Below, one piece after another: positions 7,083-21,833 of a DNA stretch of 21,833 nucleotides. Location: positions 1-21,833 of the IMG/VR virus record IMGVR_UViG_3300023103_000065; one strand, written 5' to 3'. The notes under the pieces were generated by a model. The model worked only from the letters and a program-made list of their open reading frames with translations, was not told the origin of the DNA and did not search any database. This DNA comes from a virus. The position numbers were made by a program, and so were the translations under genes. The stretch's first letter is position 1. Each line of letters starts with the position of its first letter.

Positions 7083-7733
7083 ATGAAAAGGCTTTTATTG
7101 TCAATAATCACAATCGCATTATATGTTGGCTCTAATGCACAACAGCAAACAGTACAACAAGAAAAAGATAATTTGCTTTATGCTGACAAGACAAATCCCT
7201 ATGCAAAACTTGAGCAGAGCCTTAACGGTATAGGTAATGCTAGCTATGTCAGAGATTTTACAACCTTTCGCGGACTCGATTTTAATTTTAGCCAAGCTAG
7301 ATTTTCAGCATACTTGCAAGACCAGTTTAATTTGACTTATATAAAATCTGTAGATTCAAAGAACGCAATAAGTATTCAGTTTAAACCAAAAGTTACAACA
7401 AGTAATGAATACATGAATGTTAAATATGTATTTGAAAATCGTAAAGACCTTTTGGGTTATTATAAAACTGAAGACAATACGTATAAAATACTTACAAGCG
7501 TAGAAATAACAGGTACAAAAAAAATGATTATAGATCTTTTCCTTTCTTATTGGAAACCTTTGCAGACTACATTAGGCATTTACAAAATAGGTGAAGTAGC
7601 CAACAAAGAGTTCTGGAACGATAAAATTGTTTTATACGGATTATCGGCGACCTTAGCAAAAATTGCCATTCAAAAAGGAAACACTACAATGGATTATTAC
7701 AAAACATTTGGTGTTAATGCACCGAAAAAATGA
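7083..7733 (+). CDS. Exported protein of unknown function, moron candidate
   Basis: A 216-residue protein with a standard Sec signal peptide: MKRLL, a hydrophobic core, then GSNA before Gln20, fitting the Bacteroidota preference for Gln at +1. The mature part is polar, rich in Asn, Tyr, Lys and Thr, with no transmembrane helix and no cysteine. It contains YVRDFTTFRGLDFNFSQARF and a central beta-rich section (NAISIQFKPKVTTSNEYMNV). I do not recognise a family. It is likely periplasmic or surface-located. It sits between the middle genes and a terminator at 7791-7825, where many phages carry fitness cargo (lysogenic conversion, superinfection exclusion). Its codons look more AT-rich than those of the tail genes. 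The cargo role is inference. Confidence 0.7.
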   Translation: MKRLLLSIITIALYVGSNAQQQTVQQEKDNLLYADKTNPYAKLEQSLNGIGNASYVRDFTTFRGLDFNFSQARFSAYLQDQFNLTYIKSVDSKNAISIQFKPKVTTSNEYMNVKYVFENRKDLLGYYKTEDNTYKILTSVEITGTKKMIIDLFLSYWKPLQTTLGIYKIGEVANKEFWNDKIVLYGLSATLAKIAIQKGNTTMDYYKTFGVNAPKK

Positions 7734-7836: not shown

Positions 7837-8052
7837 GTGGCATACAACGCAAATAATAAAAAACAACAACAAATACATATTCTAGCAGTTTATCAATCTG
7901 TTAAGCACTATGATGTACCCGATACCTATATAGTTCGTTGCATATTTCCTAAGCACAATATTTTCATTAGTTATAGAACGTGGCTTAGTATTAAGAATGC
8001 AGCAACGCAGTCTGGGCCTAACGATAATAAGCTTTCCCTTTTTAACAATTAA
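7837..8052 (+). CDS. Hypothetical small protein
   Basis: A 71-residue basic protein from a GTG start; no ATG is available nearby. The central part (HILAVYQSVKHYDVPDTYIV, then RCIFPKHNIFISYRTWLSIK) reads like a compact folded domain, helix-loop-beta-helix, and might bind DNA, but I do not recognise it. In Mu the middle-to-late switch proteins (Mor, C) are small DNA-binding proteins at a comparable place, so that role can be considered; no specific motif supports it. Its stop overlaps the stop of the opposing minus-strand gene in the sequence TTAA (8049-8052). Confidence 0.5.
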   Translation: MAYNANNKKQQQIHILAVYQSVKHYDVPDTYIVRCIFPKHNIFISYRTWLSIKNAATQSGPNDNKLSLFNN

Positions 8053-8537
8053 TCATCTCCATTTGATACTAACCCCATATCAAAACTAATGCTTGGTGAT
8101 GGTGTCAACATTGGCTGTATGCAAGCACTTACATCTTTTATCTGTGTGGTAAAAACCATTTCATGCAGTTTTACACTATCATCTCTTTGCACATGCTTTT
8201 CGCTTGTTCTCATCAATGCACTGTAATGGCTGCTACCTGTATAGCCATGCAGTGCCTTGAACAGTAATTGCGTTAGTGTATAAAAGCTTTCGCTATCAAG
8301 TTCTTCGCCAGTGGGTACTTGCTGTGCAATTTTTAAAGATATTTCTGCCAATCCCAACTGACCATTGCTGCCAAGGTTCTGCCACTGTACGCTTGTTATA
8401 TCTATTAGCACACATGGCCATTCTTCAGGAAAGTTTGGGCTATCATAACCCAACTGTCCACAGTCCTCTGCTAAATACAGTACTTCTGGTACTTTATTGG
8501 CTATCCTGTATTGTATTTCTGTAATAATTGCTTCCAT
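8049..8537 (-). CDS. Tail terminator/completion-like protein, inverted
   Basis: A 162-residue protein on the minus strand, the only one in the window. Its first half, with DCGQLGYDSPNFPEEWPCVL and IDITSVQWQNLGSNGQLGLA then EISLKIAQQV, follows the pattern of Bacteroidota phage proteins encoded just before the tail sheath: a 'GQL...P..FPcvLiDi...W...G..Q.g...i.l' beta domain. That fits tail terminator/completion proteins (Mu gp37, lambda gpU role), which cap the tail at the neck. The C-terminus (MLTPSPSISFDMGLV) is extended. Expression must come from a promoter in 8538-8573, divergent from the tail operon; I found no consensus box there. Identity is pattern-based, moderate. Confidence 0.55.
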   Translation of the reverse strand: MEAIITEIQYRIANKVPEVLYLAEDCGQLGYDSPNFPEEWPCVLIDITSVQWQNLGSNGQLGLAEISLKIAQQVPTGEELDSESFYTLTQLLFKALHGYTGSSHYSALMRTSEKHVQRDDSVKLHEMVFTTQIKDVSACIQPMLTPSPSISFDMGLVSNGDD

Positions 8538-17450: not shown

Positions 17451-18293
17451 ATGAACAAGAGAATTGACTTTAGCAACTTAGGTGGTTACCCAATAGCCGA
17501 AGAGGATTTTGAGTGGATGCAAAGCAGCTACAGGAATGCCTTTGCAGCACTGTCTGGGTTGATTGGCAACAACACCATTGTAAGTGGCATGGTTGAAACT
17601 GGTGGCAATGTTACCAGTGGATGGCTAAGCATTAATGGCGAATTGGTACCATTTATAGGCGGCACCATTGGCACCGGCGAATTCATCATTGATGAAACTT
17701 CCACACCATTGGTGTTTGATGATGGCATAAGCAGGGCAGCACTTTTTGAAAGGGTAGCAAGGTTTAGTGCTGGAGGCACTTATAATTATGCACAACTTAC
17801 AAGGCCAGGTACCATAAAGGAAATGTGGCAAAGATTTGATGTCAAAGAAGTTGATTGTGACAATGCCTATATCGCTACAAATTTTGACAGTACAGGTTTA
17901 GGCATTGGCGAAAGAGTTGGCTGGCAAGTGTGCAACGGCCAACGGGGAACAAAGAATAGGGGAGGAAGAATAAGTATAGGGTATAGTGATGTAACGGTTG
18001 ACCCTGTTGATAATGTTTGGGATGTTATTTATAATACTGCTGGTGCATTGGGTGGAGAAAAAAAGCACGTCATAACTCAAAGTGAATTGCCAAATATCAA
18101 CCTTAGTGCGAATGCTATTGGTAATAGGGGCTGGCCAGATGGAAGTGGGGATAGAAACAATAACCAGTATTTATTGGATACGCCTGGCGGTTCAAATGGT
18201 ACAAAAAATATTATTGTTCCATTGGGTGGTTCCAATTTTCCACATGAAAATAGACAGCCATTCATTGTTACTCTTTTCATCCAAAAATTGTAA
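17451..18293 (+). CDS. Tail fibre protein with tail-collar domain
   Basis: A 280-residue protein. Residues 1-60 are an attachment region (FSNLGGYPIAEEDFEWMQSS, then YRNAFAALSGLIG). About 150-280 form a tail-collar-type domain: GERVGWQVCNGQRGTKNRGG, RISIGYSDVTVDPVDNVW, GALGGEKKHVITQSELPNI, and the end NFPHENRQPFIVTLFIQKL. The order 'W.vcNGq.Gt...GR..iGy', 'GG...H.it..ELP', 'h.NrqPf....fI.k' is diagnostic. The Gly/Asn-rich loop at about 225-255 is where receptor-binding diversity would be expected. It probably contacts the host surface. High confidence for the domain. Confidence 0.82.
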   Translation: MNKRIDFSNLGGYPIAEEDFEWMQSSYRNAFAALSGLIGNNTIVSGMVETGGNVTSGWLSINGELVPFIGGTIGTGEFIIDETSTPLVFDDGISRAALFERVARFSAGGTYNYAQLTRPGTIKEMWQRFDVKEVDCDNAYIATNFDSTGLGIGERVGWQVCNGQRGTKNRGGRISIGYSDVTVDPVDNVWDVIYNTAGALGGEKKHVITQSELPNINLSANAIGNRGWPDGSGDRNNNQYLLDTPGGSNGTKNIIVPLGGSNFPHENRQPFIVTLFIQKL

Positions 18294-18296
18294 GAC

Positions 18297-18764
18297 ATGG
18301 CCATAAAAACAATAGATGAACTAAAGGCGTTTTTTGAAACAGGCGACAAACCAACACAGCAGCAATTTGCAGATTGGCTCGATAGTTTTTTTCATAGGAA
18401 TGACGGAATTGGGATTCCCAATGTTACTGGGCTCATAGCTGCATTGGCTTCAAAGGCTGATTTGGTTGGGGGAAAAGTAAGGCAGGAGCAATTGCCTGAT
18501 AGTATAGCTGAATATGTTGGCAATGCAGATTTCTCAAGGGATTTTCCAGCAAAAAGTATCATGTACTCTCTTGTTTGCGATGCAGCAAATGATATTACCA
18601 TTAATGTGGGGACAACAAGTGGGGGCGATGATATACTGAGCAACTATTTTGTAGCTGCCAACAGTCCCGAACCGCTGCTATTAAACAAGTACTTTAAAAA
18701 TGCTACCACTATTTATGTAAGCGGAATAACAGCAAACATCTTTTTTAAATTTTTTAAATGCTAA
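18297..18764 (+). CDS. Short tail-fibre protein
   Basis: A 155-residue protein. The opening (TIDELKAFFETGDKPTQQQF, then ADWLDSFFHRNDGI) is a motif I associate with fibre proteins at the end of Bacteroidota phage tail operons ('L...FetGDkPTq.QFaDwlDSf'). A short KADLVGGKVRQEQLPDSIAE segment resembles the linker in fibre shafts, and the C-terminal 60 residues are beta-rich and end hydrophobic (GITANIFFKFFKC). It begins 3 bases after the collar gene and its stop overlaps an alternative ATG of the next gene. It could be a fibre subunit or a connector for the large protein that follows. Confidence 0.65.
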   Translation: MAIKTIDELKAFFETGDKPTQQQFADWLDSFFHRNDGIGIPNVTGLIAALASKADLVGGKVRQEQLPDSIAEYVGNADFSRDFPAKSIMYSLVCDAANDITINVGTTSGGDDILSNYFVAANSPEPLLLNKYFKNATTIYVSGITANIFFKFFKC

Positions 18765-18766
18765 GT

Positions 18767-20734
18767 ATGAAAACAATATTAACTGTAACTGCCATGCTTG
18801 TTTGCATGATGGCAACCGCACAGGATTTTCCTTCTATAAAGATTAGTGGATACAAAGTTGACGGCATAAGTAATGACAGTACAATAGCCAATAAAAGCGC
18901 CACAAAGCTTATTAGTGAGTGGGCAGCAAAACAAGCCATTCTCGGAAGGTATAACTCATTGAGTTTAAACTTTGCAAATTATCTTTCTGCAACAAGTTTC
19001 AATAATGCCATTAATGGTTCTGCTTTGCAAGTACCATATTTTCGAAGTGGCGGCCACTCATTGGGCGGAAATGCCGGATTTACCTATGATACTATTAATA
19101 ACACGCTTACTGTAGGTGGTAATGGATTGGCAGCTTCGTTTACTGGCTCTGTGAATATCAGTAAAAGTCTAACAACAGGCAGTAACCATAATCAAAACTT
19201 AGCTGGCGATAACATTGCTATTGGTTATAACAACGGAACAAGTTATGTTAATCTTGGCAAGGTAGAAAATAACAACTCGAATTATTTCAATTGGGTTGGT
19301 AATACATGGAAAACATATTGGACTGCTAATGACAATGCTGGCTATGATGCAGGAAAAGTGTTTGCTGAAATATACCAAGGCAAAATAAAAATCACTAATG
19401 GCCTGTCTGGTACCTTTTCAAGTTCGTTAACAGCCCCAGTTATTTCGAGTGGTGCAAATACAACTGCTGATTACAAGATTTGTAATTATGATAATGGTGC
19501 TGCATACATACAAAACGTATGGTTTAACAATAGTGCCGTACAAGTTGGTGGTGACGCATGGGGTGCAAATCCGCACGGAGCCATGAGCTTTCAAACAGGC
19601 AGCAATTATGGACTTCACTTGGGCACTTATGGTACAAGCCATGATATATGGCTAGATGCACCTAATACAAAAGTTTCAAATAATCTATATGCAGGTGCGT
19701 TCAAAAAAAATGGGTCGTCGGATAGTTATGTTTTATTGGGTGGTGGTGGTCATGCTCCGCTTTCTTCTTTAGGTGGTGGATGGAGCAAAAATCTAAATTC
19801 TATAGGTGACCATAACGAAGCTTTTGCTGATCACTATGAATATAATATAAAGGATAACCCAGAGGACAATTATAAGTGGTGGAAAGTTGACCCAATGCAT
19901 CATTTTACTGGGCAGGGTGATTTTGAAAATCATTATAGTGAAGCATATATAACAACAGATTTTCAAACACTAATTGCTCAAGGTCAGGATATGGCATTGG
20001 GTGATTATCAGAATACTATTAACGAAACTTGGTTAAAAATAAATTCTAATGACAGAAATGTCAGAGCAATAGTTGATGGTGCCCCTTTACTTGAAATTTA
20101 TAGTCCCTCAGATGGTGATACTTGGTTAGGAGATAAAAATGAAGCTTGGAACGGTGGATATATCCATTTCGATCAGGACCAGAATGCAAACTTACAAGGG
20201 GGTAGAGAAACTAAAGTTGGTGATTTAAGAAAAAATTTTAATGAGTGGTTTTTGAAAATTAATAGTGAATACGAATTTGTAACACTCGGTAAAAATAATG
20301 ATGTCACTAATAGTGAAGGGAGCATGGCAATAGGTCAAAATAACCAAATTACAAGTGGTGCATTTGGCTACATATTGGGTAGTGATGATGTGCTGGAAGG
20401 CAACGATGAAAACTACATAGTTGGCCGCAACAACCTGATTGGCGGCAGTGTTGACAATACCTACATATTTGGGTATGGCAACGAGGCAAGAAACGAGGCT
20501 TCAGACATGATGCTTATCGGATTTGGGCTAACGGCCGAAAGTGACGTTATACAGGTTGGCTATGGGGCCGATGCCCTCAAAATTAAAAATGATGGTAGTA
20601 TCAAAACCAGCGAAGGTTTTGAATGGTTGAAAATACTTGGCCGTTATACTCCTTATACAACACCATCACAAGTAGACTGGCTAAAAATAAAAATTGAGGG
20701 AACTATTTATTATATACCACTTCATCAAAACTAA
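18767..20734 (+). CDS. Large fibre/adhesin-like protein with signal peptide
   Basis: 655 residues from the ATG at 18767; an ATG at 18758 would add 3 residues. It begins with a Sec signal peptide: MKTI, core LTVTAMLVCMM, ATA before Gln19. The Cys lacks a proper lipobox. The mature N-terminus (IKISGYKVDGISNDSTIANK) and following Gly/Asn/Ser-rich beta repeats are typical of Bacteroidota fibre proteins. Related segments recur (INETWLKINSN and FNEWFLKINSE). About 515-605 is a left-handed beta-roll of the YadA-head kind (GSMAIGQNNQITSGAFGYIL, NYIVGRNNLIGG, YIFGYGNEARNEASDMMLIG). The end (ILGRYTPYTTPSQ, WLKIKIEGTIYYIPLHQN) is a conserved fibre terminus. It is probably the host-recognition fibre, or a surface adhesin if truly exported. 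Confidence 0.75.
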   Translation: MKTILTVTAMLVCMMATAQDFPSIKISGYKVDGISNDSTIANKSATKLISEWAAKQAILGRYNSLSLNFANYLSATSFNNAINGSALQVPYFRSGGHSLGGNAGFTYDTINNTLTVGGNGLAASFTGSVNISKSLTTGSNHNQNLAGDNIAIGYNNGTSYVNLGKVENNNSNYFNWVGNTWKTYWTANDNAGYDAGKVFAEIYQGKIKITNGLSGTFSSSLTAPVISSGANTTADYKICNYDNGAAYIQNVWFNNSAVQVGGDAWGANPHGAMSFQTGSNYGLHLGTYGTSHDIWLDAPNTKVSNNLYAGAFKKNGSSDSYVLLGGGGHAPLSSLGGGWSKNLNSIGDHNEAFADHYEYNIKDNPEDNYKWWKVDPMHHFTGQGDFENHYSEAYITTDFQTLIAQGQDMALGDYQNTINETWLKINSNDRNVRAIVDGAPLLEIYSPSDGDTWLGDKNEAWNGGYIHFDQDQNANLQGGRETKVGDLRKNFNEWFLKINSEYEFVTLGKNNDVTNSEGSMAIGQNNQITSGAFGYILGSDDVLEGNDENYIVGRNNLIGGSVDNTYIFGYGNEARNEASDMMLIGFGLTAESDVIQVGYGADALKIKNDGSIKTSEGFEWLKILGRYTPYTTPSQVDWLKIKIEGTIYYIPLHQN

Positions 20735-20745
20735 AATCAACAGAC

Positions 20746-21234
20746 ATGAAAGGAATCGTTAGTGCATTAATAATATGCTTTATAGCAGTGCAATCTTTTG
20801 GACAGGATTCGTCCTTCCAAAAAAAATGGGTAAGACTTGATAGTGCAACCCTTGCCAAGAGCAGGTCAAAGAAAAACATCGATACTGCATTTCAAAGAAA
20901 GCCTTACAACTGGGACAGCCTGCACCTAGCAGTCAAGAGAAACTATAGAAACTTGAAGGATTCTGTGAACTGTAAAATTGTTTGGGTAAATAATAAGGGC
21001 ATTACCAAAACGGATACGGCCACTGTTTTCATTGAAGCAAAAAATGTTAGTGCGGTTCAGAATTTCGGGCAGTTCAAAACCCTGCCTTATGGGTCAATAG
21101 AATTGTCAAATAGCTATGGCAGGATATTCTTGCAGCCACTTTGGAAAATTAAAAATATACTGTTAAATAAAAACAGGCAAAGAATTCATAAGGACAGGAT
21201 AAGCTCTTACGTCCTTTTAAGCAAAAAATCTTAA
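20746..21234 (+). CDS. Exported protein of unknown function
   Basis: A 162-residue protein with a Sec signal peptide (MKGIVSALIICFIAVQSFG before Gln20). It starts 11 bases after the fibre gene. The mature protein is very basic (KKNIDTAFQRKPYNWDSLHL, then AVKRNYRNLKDSVNCKIVWV) with beta segments such as TATVFIEAKNVSAVQNFGQF and an Arg/Lys-rich C-terminus (LLNKNRQRIHKDRIS). I recognise no family and see no enzyme motif. Location between a fibre and a holin-like gene suggests envelope or lysis-related work, or an accessory of the fibre. Function is open. Confidence 0.65.
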   Translation: MKGIVSALIICFIAVQSFGQDSSFQKKWVRLDSATLAKSRSKKNIDTAFQRKPYNWDSLHLAVKRNYRNLKDSVNCKIVWVNNKGITKTDTATVFIEAKNVSAVQNFGQFKTLPYGSIELSNSYGRIFLQPLWKIKNILLNKNRQRIHKDRISSYVLLSKKS

Positions 21235-21256
21235 CCAACCACTTCAATTAAACAAA

Positions 21257-21610
21257 ATGAACAAATTGATATTCATTGTGGCTTTACTTTTTTCTGTTGC
21301 AGCAAATTCCCAAGTAAACCAGCCAGCACAACCTAAACAATTCATTGAAGGCTTATCTGCCGATGTTGCAAATTACAAAGACACTACTACAGGTATTACC
21401 TATGCAAAGTTATATGCCGGGGCAACTGTTGTGAATATTGCAGTTACTGCACAGGGTTACCGTGTTGCCTTCAAAGTATTGTTCTTTGCAGATAAGGCAA
21501 GCCTAATGGCTGGAAAAAAAGAAGTAGTGCAGCAACAGTACATGTTTGCTGTTAAAGCCTACCCACTTGAGGCTGATTTAAAAAAGGCATTTCTATCATT
21601 ATTCAAATAA
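21257..21610 (+). CDS. Small exported protein of unknown function
   Basis: A 117-residue protein with a clear Sec signal peptide (MNKLIFIVALLFSVAANS before Gln19). The mature part of about 99 residues is Ala/Thr-rich and beta-like: TTTGITYAKLYAGATVVNIA, VTAQGYRVAFKVLFFADKAS, then GKKEVVQQQYMFAVKAYPLE. It might be a small periplasmic sandwich fold. No motif identifies it. It follows the previous exported gene by 22 bases and precedes the holin-like gene by 7, so the three are one transcript. Confidence 0.65.
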   Translation: MNKLIFIVALLFSVAANSQVNQPAQPKQFIEGLSADVANYKDTTTGITYAKLYAGATVVNIAVTAQGYRVAFKVLFFADKASLMAGKKEVVQQQYMFAVKAYPLEADLKKAFLSLFK

Positions 21611-21617
21611 TATCTTA

Positions 21618-21833
21618 ATGCGGTACTTATATGAATACCTGAGTATCCTGATTCCTGTTGGAGCTGTATTTGTTGCTTTTTATACCAACGTAAATGTGCG
21701 GTTGAAAGCGTTGGAAATTCAAGTAAAGGACATGATAGAAAGCAAAAGAAACAACGACGAGAAGTACGATAGGATTATTGAGATGCTCAGTGATTTGCGT
21801 GTGGAAATGCAGAATAAAAAAAATCGCGATTAA
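21618..21833 (+). CDS. Holin-like/N-anchored coiled-coil protein
   Basis: A 71-residue protein ending exactly at the window edge (TAA 21831-21833). One transmembrane helix at about residues 7-24 (YLSILIPVGAVFVAFYTN) is followed by a charged helix likely to form a coiled coil (RLKALEIQVKDMIESKRNND, then RIIEMLSDLRVEMQNK). This is the layout of BhlA/UviB-type small holins and related phage membrane proteins. It follows the tail region, so the lysis genes may begin here and continue downstream. Holin is the best guess, but spanin-like or anchor roles also fit. Confidence 0.55.
   Translation: MRYLYEYLSILIPVGAVFVAFYTNVNVRLKALEIQVKDMIESKRNNDEKYDRIIEMLSDLRVEMQNKKNRD

Follow-up and report, generated by a model that had tools for sequence, protein, structure and literature searches.

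Genes at the end of the tail operon

The window, that is the whole stretch of DNA analysed here (21,833 nucleotides), comes from a contractile-tailed, Mu-like phage and is a linear 21.8-kb contig of IMG/VR. The sheath, protein D, J-like and other tail genes are homologous to those of Winoviridae phages of Flavobacterium and Winogradskyella. At the 3' end of the tail operon a collar-like protein is followed by a 155-aa gene, a 655-aa fibre, two small genes and a holin-like gene. These features, and one more signal-peptide gene further upstream, are:

7083-7733, + strand: fourth Q-rule signal-peptide protein, 216 aa, outside the tail module; MKRLLLSIITIALYVGSNA, then QQQ
17451-18293, + strand: collar-like tail protein, kept in relatives; 44% identity to L133:3229-4071, PHROG tail fiber 8469 with E 1.8e-6
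18297-18764, + strand: short adaptor, 155 aa, with an N-terminal tail-fibre attachment domain (about residues 1-45) and a small C-terminal beta-sandwich
18767-20734, + strand: predicted exported fibre of 655 aa (637 aa once the signal peptide is removed); over 36 aa its N-terminus is 56% identical to the signal-peptide fibre of L133
18767-18820, + strand: fibre signal peptide MKTILTVTAMLVCMMATA, cut before Gln, mature start QDFPS
20282-20560, + strand: YadA-head-like 15-16-residue repeats in the fibre, hydrophobic-Gly repeat
20746-21234, + strand: second signal-peptide protein, 162 aa; Sec/SPI MKGIVSALIICFIAVQSFG, then QDSS; the mature part holds five O-glycosylation sequons of the form D[ST][AILVMT]
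21257-21610, + strand: third signal-peptide protein (117 aa), which probably lies on the margin of the lysis cassette; Sec/SPI MNKLIFIVALLFSVAANS, then QVNQ
21618-21833, + strand: small holin-like protein at the end of the contig; a single membrane segment, N-terminal

Unlike in lotta8, we recognised no gene for a terminase, portal or capsid protein on the 5' side of the sheath gene (window 8049-8537 on the minus strand, and 9122 onward), although the minus-strand gene at 8049-8537 occupies the corresponding position. The gene at 7083-7733, which was absent from the original prediction, sits between the replication/transposition genes and the tail module, and no homologue of its product was found in phage records.

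When the ORFs of the window, a linear fragment, were compared with the fetched relatives, none matched their Clp-type protease or major capsid protein, which are the core head genes of Winoviridae. The head genes are probably beyond the contig end, and a further fibre gene could also be outside the window.

Signal peptides and the start of the fibre

Signal peptides were called by a home-made scorer of the n-, h- and c-regions and the -3/-1 positions, not by SignalP. Four of the 29 window genes score as signal-peptide genes, all with Gln at +1, as compared to 17 of 8700 shuffled versions of the window proteins (4 of them with Gln) and 16 of 1677 shadow ORFs of relatives (2 with Gln). Since shuffled proteins and shadow ORFs rarely score, the three adjacent Q-rule signal peptides are not due to chance. 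In Bacteroidetes the Q-rule means Gln at +1 of signal peptidase I substrates (PMC5837995), and the window proteins have the n/h/c signal peptide, small residues at -3/-1 and Gln at +1. The scorer is thus in agreement with the original prediction of Sec signal peptides, with the cut before Gln, in the fibre and the two genes after it, at the positions listed above.

The longest ORF of the fibre starts at 18758 (658 aa), and the ATG at 18767 (655 aa), 2 nt past the stop of the adaptor gene, is the better start. In relatives the ATG of the signal peptide overlaps the adaptor stop (ATGA in L021 and L099, TAATG in L052, L082 and L083) or follows it after 1 nt (L107), 2 nt (L133, L056, L089) or 4 nt (L018), with longer gaps in others. 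The pN/pS of the signal-peptide codons was 0.42, against 0.15 for the next 40 codons.

It had also been proposed that the trio could be one exported unit, which found no support; in L133, the closest relative, the gene order differs. The L133 fibre is followed by a non-exported 135-aa gene, a 111-aa signal-peptide gene and then a small membrane protein, a membrane/lipobox protein and a muramidase-like gene, the names of the last three coming from inspection. A single unit made up of the trio is improbable, and since the 111-aa exported gene of L133 adjoins lysis genes, 21257-21610 appears more likely to belong with lysis. Searches found no homologue of the 162-aa protein (20746-21234) or of the 117-aa protein (21257-21610).

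The fibre sequence

Direct homology searches with the window fibre as query gave no homologue in phages or viral contigs; its N-terminus matches L133 alone, and there was no PHROG or PDB match. A single-sequence AlphaFold model was unusable (pLDDT 30). The YadA-head-like beta-roll proposed earlier is partly borne out: a hydrophobic-Gly repeat of 15-16 residues, at residues 506, 521, 536, 551, 567 and 583, rises above the shuffled 95% limit, but the YadA head model of Pfam has no match at E<1. Nor did Pfam give a match at E<1 to the YadA C-terminal membrane anchor, apart from a weak Phage_spike, or any match to the T9SS C-terminal secretion domain. The autotransporter and T9SS identities were dropped, given the lack of a C-terminal anchor or secretion domain in Pfam and the tail-fibre position.

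As the fibre searches were empty, relatives were reached first via the J-like baseplate protein and next with a degenerate DNA pattern that describes the attachment domain. Alignment-based scans for relatives were fruitless, with too few conserved stretches, and a pattern for the fibre C-terminus matched no viral contig.

The adaptor and the gene that follows it

The first 43 or so residues of the adaptor are 43-62% identical to the start of the long fibres in lotta8, FPSV-S1 and L002, and full-length relatives occur in L133, L021, L056 and L048. The structure model has a pLDDT of about 90 over residues 71-155. Compared to known folds it gave only weak jelly-roll or CBM-like matches, and because of this weakness we claim no ligand for the adaptor. 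The window fibre accordingly has a neighbour with a tail-attachment domain and lies within the tail operon, as a tail fibre does.

With the attachment-domain pattern we obtained 66 stretches from prokaryote genomes and 73 from viral contigs; the hosts in these records include Pedobacter, Flavobacterium, Prolixibacteraceae, Saprospiraceae and Chitinophagales. With length classes set after the data were seen (short, <250 aa; long, >=400 aa), a signal-peptide gene came next in 15 of 26 independent phage or prophage clusters with a short adaptor, the window being one of the 15, and in none of 29 clusters with a long one-piece fibre (Fisher 6e-7). The genes just upstream of short adaptors were never signal-peptide genes (0/79; Fisher 1e-11), and adaptors of intermediate length had one next to them in 2 of 8 clusters. 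Gln was found at +1 in all 15 short-adaptor clusters, and in 17 of 17 when the two mid-length ones are included. Because signal-peptide genes follow short, and never long, attachment-domain proteins, the pair resembles a fibre split in two, with the short protein as the adaptor and the exported protein as the distal half that the adaptor lacks.

Six stretches from Aquimarina, Tenacibaculum and Flavobacteriaceae (L010, L011, L041, L046, L065, L073) have short adaptors followed by non-exported proteins, most of which start with M..SYFLKxGKGTYGxGxTQI. These proteins may represent a second docking solution.

Exported proteins in the relatives

The exported proteins beside adaptors resemble receptor-binding proteins. 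The last 40-50 residues of the L102 protein are 55-65% identical to tail tips of Klebsiella, Synechococcus and Sphingomonas phages, and others match PHROG tail, minor tail or tail fiber families, while several have no match at all. GDSL/SGNH esterase domains were found in two exported fibres (L089:782-3103 and L099:4604-7444), which could possibly be receptor-deacetylating tailspikes. In L107, L113, L124 and L136 the tail operons are complete from the sheath or tape measure to the end and hold no second large fibre gene.

Where exported fibres stand in tandem (L052, L082, L083, L148) the copies share 70-94% of their first 90 residues, and beyond these the figure is mostly 27-39%, a pattern that resembles the usual constant docking part with a variable tip. 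In L082:5448-13355, L083:251-6716 and L148:8551-12904 a constant exported protein of 283-290 aa precedes two or three alternative exported fibres whose N-termini are nearly the same, which gives the appearance of an array of fibre cassettes. No convincing inverted repeats able to flip the tandem fibres were found in L082 and L083.

One N-terminal domain, LQLNxVxxGxxxDSVLV..., occurs beside the adaptor with a signal peptide in L002, L023, L040, L058, L063, L102, L134 and L136, and in the same adaptor-linked slot without one in L019, L047, L101, L114 and fF4. The original prediction had regarded homologues starting after the hydrophobic segment as evidence against export. Such homologues do exist, but they have a hydrophilic leader of their own, and L084 carries both forms, with and without a signal peptide (MKKIIIICLLVIGMMTNAQTNQVITKKLQLNNVP and MSKQVITKKLQLNNVP). 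Judged from these sequences, the leader of the fibre is a replaceable module. Export is not obligatory for the fibre slot, since fF4, the nearest isolated short-adaptor relative, has a fibre free of a signal peptide.

Bacteroidota O-glycosylate noncytoplasmic proteins at D-S/T-A/L/V/I/M/T (PMC12871550). The window has two such sites in the fibre and five in the 162-aa protein. Relative to the shuffled expectation, the frequency of the sequon was 1.31 for mature exported fibres, as against 0.77 and 0.62 for the two classes of non-exported fibres. The rate ratio of exported to non-exported fibres was 1.83, with a cluster permutation p of 0.0009 (0.0104 and 0.0013 with coarser clustering). The excess of the exported fibres is concentrated in their first 70 mature residues, with 17.5 sequons per 1000 aa against 1.6. 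Within the LQLNxVxxGxxxDSVLV domain, 8 of 9 exported members have a site as against 1 of 7 non-exported (p 0.009), several of the exported members being closely related. The enrichment suggests that the fibres are really exported. The virion fibres of Cellulophaga phages are not rich in sequons.

Virion proteins of Cellulophaga phages

Ten tail-tip proteins of the isolates phi10:1, phi19:1 and phi39:1 have signal peptides and are listed as found in virions by MS/MS, statements that are the depositors' annotations and not spectra, and periplasmic proteins could contaminate particle preparations. In phi10:1 there are five consecutive signal-peptide tail-tip genes, gp091-gp095, of which gp091-gp094 carry the MS/MS annotation and gp095 does not; a pectate-lyase tailspike and a tail fiber are among the four so annotated. 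The four proteins gp101-gp104 of phi19:1 and the two proteins gp25-gp26 of phi39:1 are likewise signal-peptide tail-tip proteins annotated as MS/MS virion proteins. Gln is the likely +1 residue in nine of the ten, and Lys in phi19:1 gp104. None of the 29 other MS/MS virion proteins of phi10:1, phi19:1, phi39:1 and phi18:1 has a signal peptide.

The tailspike set recurs, with its leaders kept, in the podophages phi19:3, phi13:2 and phi46:3 and in Ingeline. Ingeline is a Cellulophaga phage assigned to a different family, the Duneviridae, and has four consecutive signal-peptide tail-tip genes (L160:2041-8449). The inspected stretches of Cellulophaga phi46:1 and Flavobacterium 11b held no signal-peptide tail proteins, the MS/MS proteins of phi18:1 have no signal peptide, and the phi17:2 tailspikes are without them. 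The trait is common, not universal. No homology was found between the Cellulophaga tail-tip proteins and the adaptor-linked fibres, so that the support from Cellulophaga is by analogy, and the exported-fibre solution seems to have evolved, or been taken up, on more than one occasion.

How the fibre may reach the virion

Tailed phages are, according to the textbooks, assembled in the cytoplasm. The best reading of the locus, to which we give a probability of about 0.7, is that a Sec-exported distal fibre would join the cytoplasm-built tail outside the cytoplasm. In a Mu-like Bacteroidota phage with a contractile tail, the product of 18767-20734 would form the distal part of the tail fibre and recognise the host. 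Its Sec signal peptide would take it to the periplasm, where signal peptidase I would cut before Gln; cyclisation of the Gln exposed in this way is probable, as is O-glycosylation of the mature N-terminal region. The tail would meanwhile be assembled in the cytoplasm with the adaptor 18297-18764, which would bring the tail-attachment domain but no receptor-binding part. Adaptor and fibre would then be joined outside the cytoplasm, in the simplest case as lysis brings periplasm and virions together. A fibre that joins particles outside the cytoplasm was among the options of the original prediction and has become the best one through the MS/MS annotation of unrelated signal-peptide fibres. For the window fibre itself we infer export, cleavage, modification, presence in the virion and the docking on the adaptor.

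It is also conceivable that the protein never becomes part of a virion. A secreted fibre-like protein could act as a decoy or exclusion factor that binds or modifies host receptors and thereby keeps progeny from re-adsorbing to debris and makes lysogens resistant to superinfection. Exported phage proteins beside tail genes are known, such as lambda Lom (PMC12309495) and the Q-rule proteins of Porphyromonas gingivalis phages (PMC10367356), and the esterase domains in some of the exported fibres would fit such a function. Against this, the exported proteins fill the fibre slot beside an adaptor without a tip of its own, relatives in the same slot have no signal peptide, and unrelated signal-peptide tailspikes and fibres are MS/MS-annotated as virion proteins. 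The host-surface adhesin or decoy of the original prediction is for these reasons less likely, and we regard it as unlikely. The fibre might also have a dual fate, partly exported as a decoy and partly kept in the cytoplasm and built into the tail with its leader uncut. One domain does occur in the same slot with and without a signal peptide, but the +1 Gln in 17 of 17 clusters and the sequon enrichment point to efficient export and processing, which makes this improbable.

Two further explanations deserve very little weight. Inner ATG codons are present in the window just before the cut (MMATAQDF), and translation from there would give an ordinary cytoplasmic fibre, a misread N-terminus having been one of the options considered earlier. 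This is hardly tenable, because the start at 18767 is coupled to the adaptor stop and the signal-peptide codons are under purifying selection; relatives such as L133 lack the inner Met and have a like short-gap or ATGA geometry. A misread start is thereby largely refuted by the relatives, and we consider it very improbable. The signal peptide together with the YadA-head-like repeats could bring to mind a host-type trimeric autotransporter or a T9SS surface adhesin carried as phage cargo. Such an origin is scarcely credible for a protein with no match to a YadA anchor or T9SS C-terminal domain, and with a position and adaptor coupling typical of a tail fibre.

Beyond this locus, it is suggested that Bacteroidota tailed phages commonly complete their virions outside the cytoplasm, because the annotated proteomics place exported fibres in finished particles. 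Sec-exported receptor-binding fibres, cyclised at the N-terminus and O-glycosylated in the periplasm, would dock at lysis on the adaptors of particles that are complete in other respects, and infectivity would be acquired only during exit. We hold this wider idea to be somewhat better than an even bet. If true, it would imply a late extracytoplasmic maturation in which the host's signal peptidase, glutaminyl cyclase and O-glycosylation act on a part of the virion, and the receptor-binding proteins of these phages should be expressed with their leader and in a Bacteroidota host. It would also bear on host-range tuning through exchange of exported fibre cassettes, and on the annotation of signal-peptide genes in gut and marine phages, which may be mistaken for host-surface morons.

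Comparison with known systems

In a survey of DGRs, the absence of signal peptides was taken as support for a phage origin of target proteins (PMC6199706). The open-licence literature that was searched yielded no account of tailed phages whose tail fibres carry signal peptides. Virion proteins made with signal peptides are familiar from the filamentous phage M13, in its coat proteins pIII and pVIII. M13 is, however, an extruded filamentous virus with a membrane-embedded coat, and not a lysing tailed phage. The Cellulophaga phages phi10:1 (gp091-gp095) and phi19:1 (gp101-gp104), both Assiduviridae, and phi39:1 (gp25-gp26) have, like the window, consecutive Sec signal-peptide tail-tip genes, mostly with Gln at +1, but their tails are non-contractile and no short adaptor of the window family was seen in them.

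Q-rule proteins of P. gingivalis phages have been noted earlier (PMC10367356), and the predicted cut exposes Gln as in the window; they differ in being of unknown function and read as modifiers of the host envelope, not as tail fibres. Lambda Lom (PMC12309495) is likewise exported and encoded among tail-fibre genes, but it is an outer-membrane beta-barrel of the host cell and not a virion fibre. Among the Winoviridae, lotta8 (gp046) and FPSV-S1 differ from the window in having one long fibre without a signal peptide, and fF4 has a short adaptor like that of the window but a fibre without a signal peptide. All three share with the window the attachment domain at the N-terminus and the set of tail genes.
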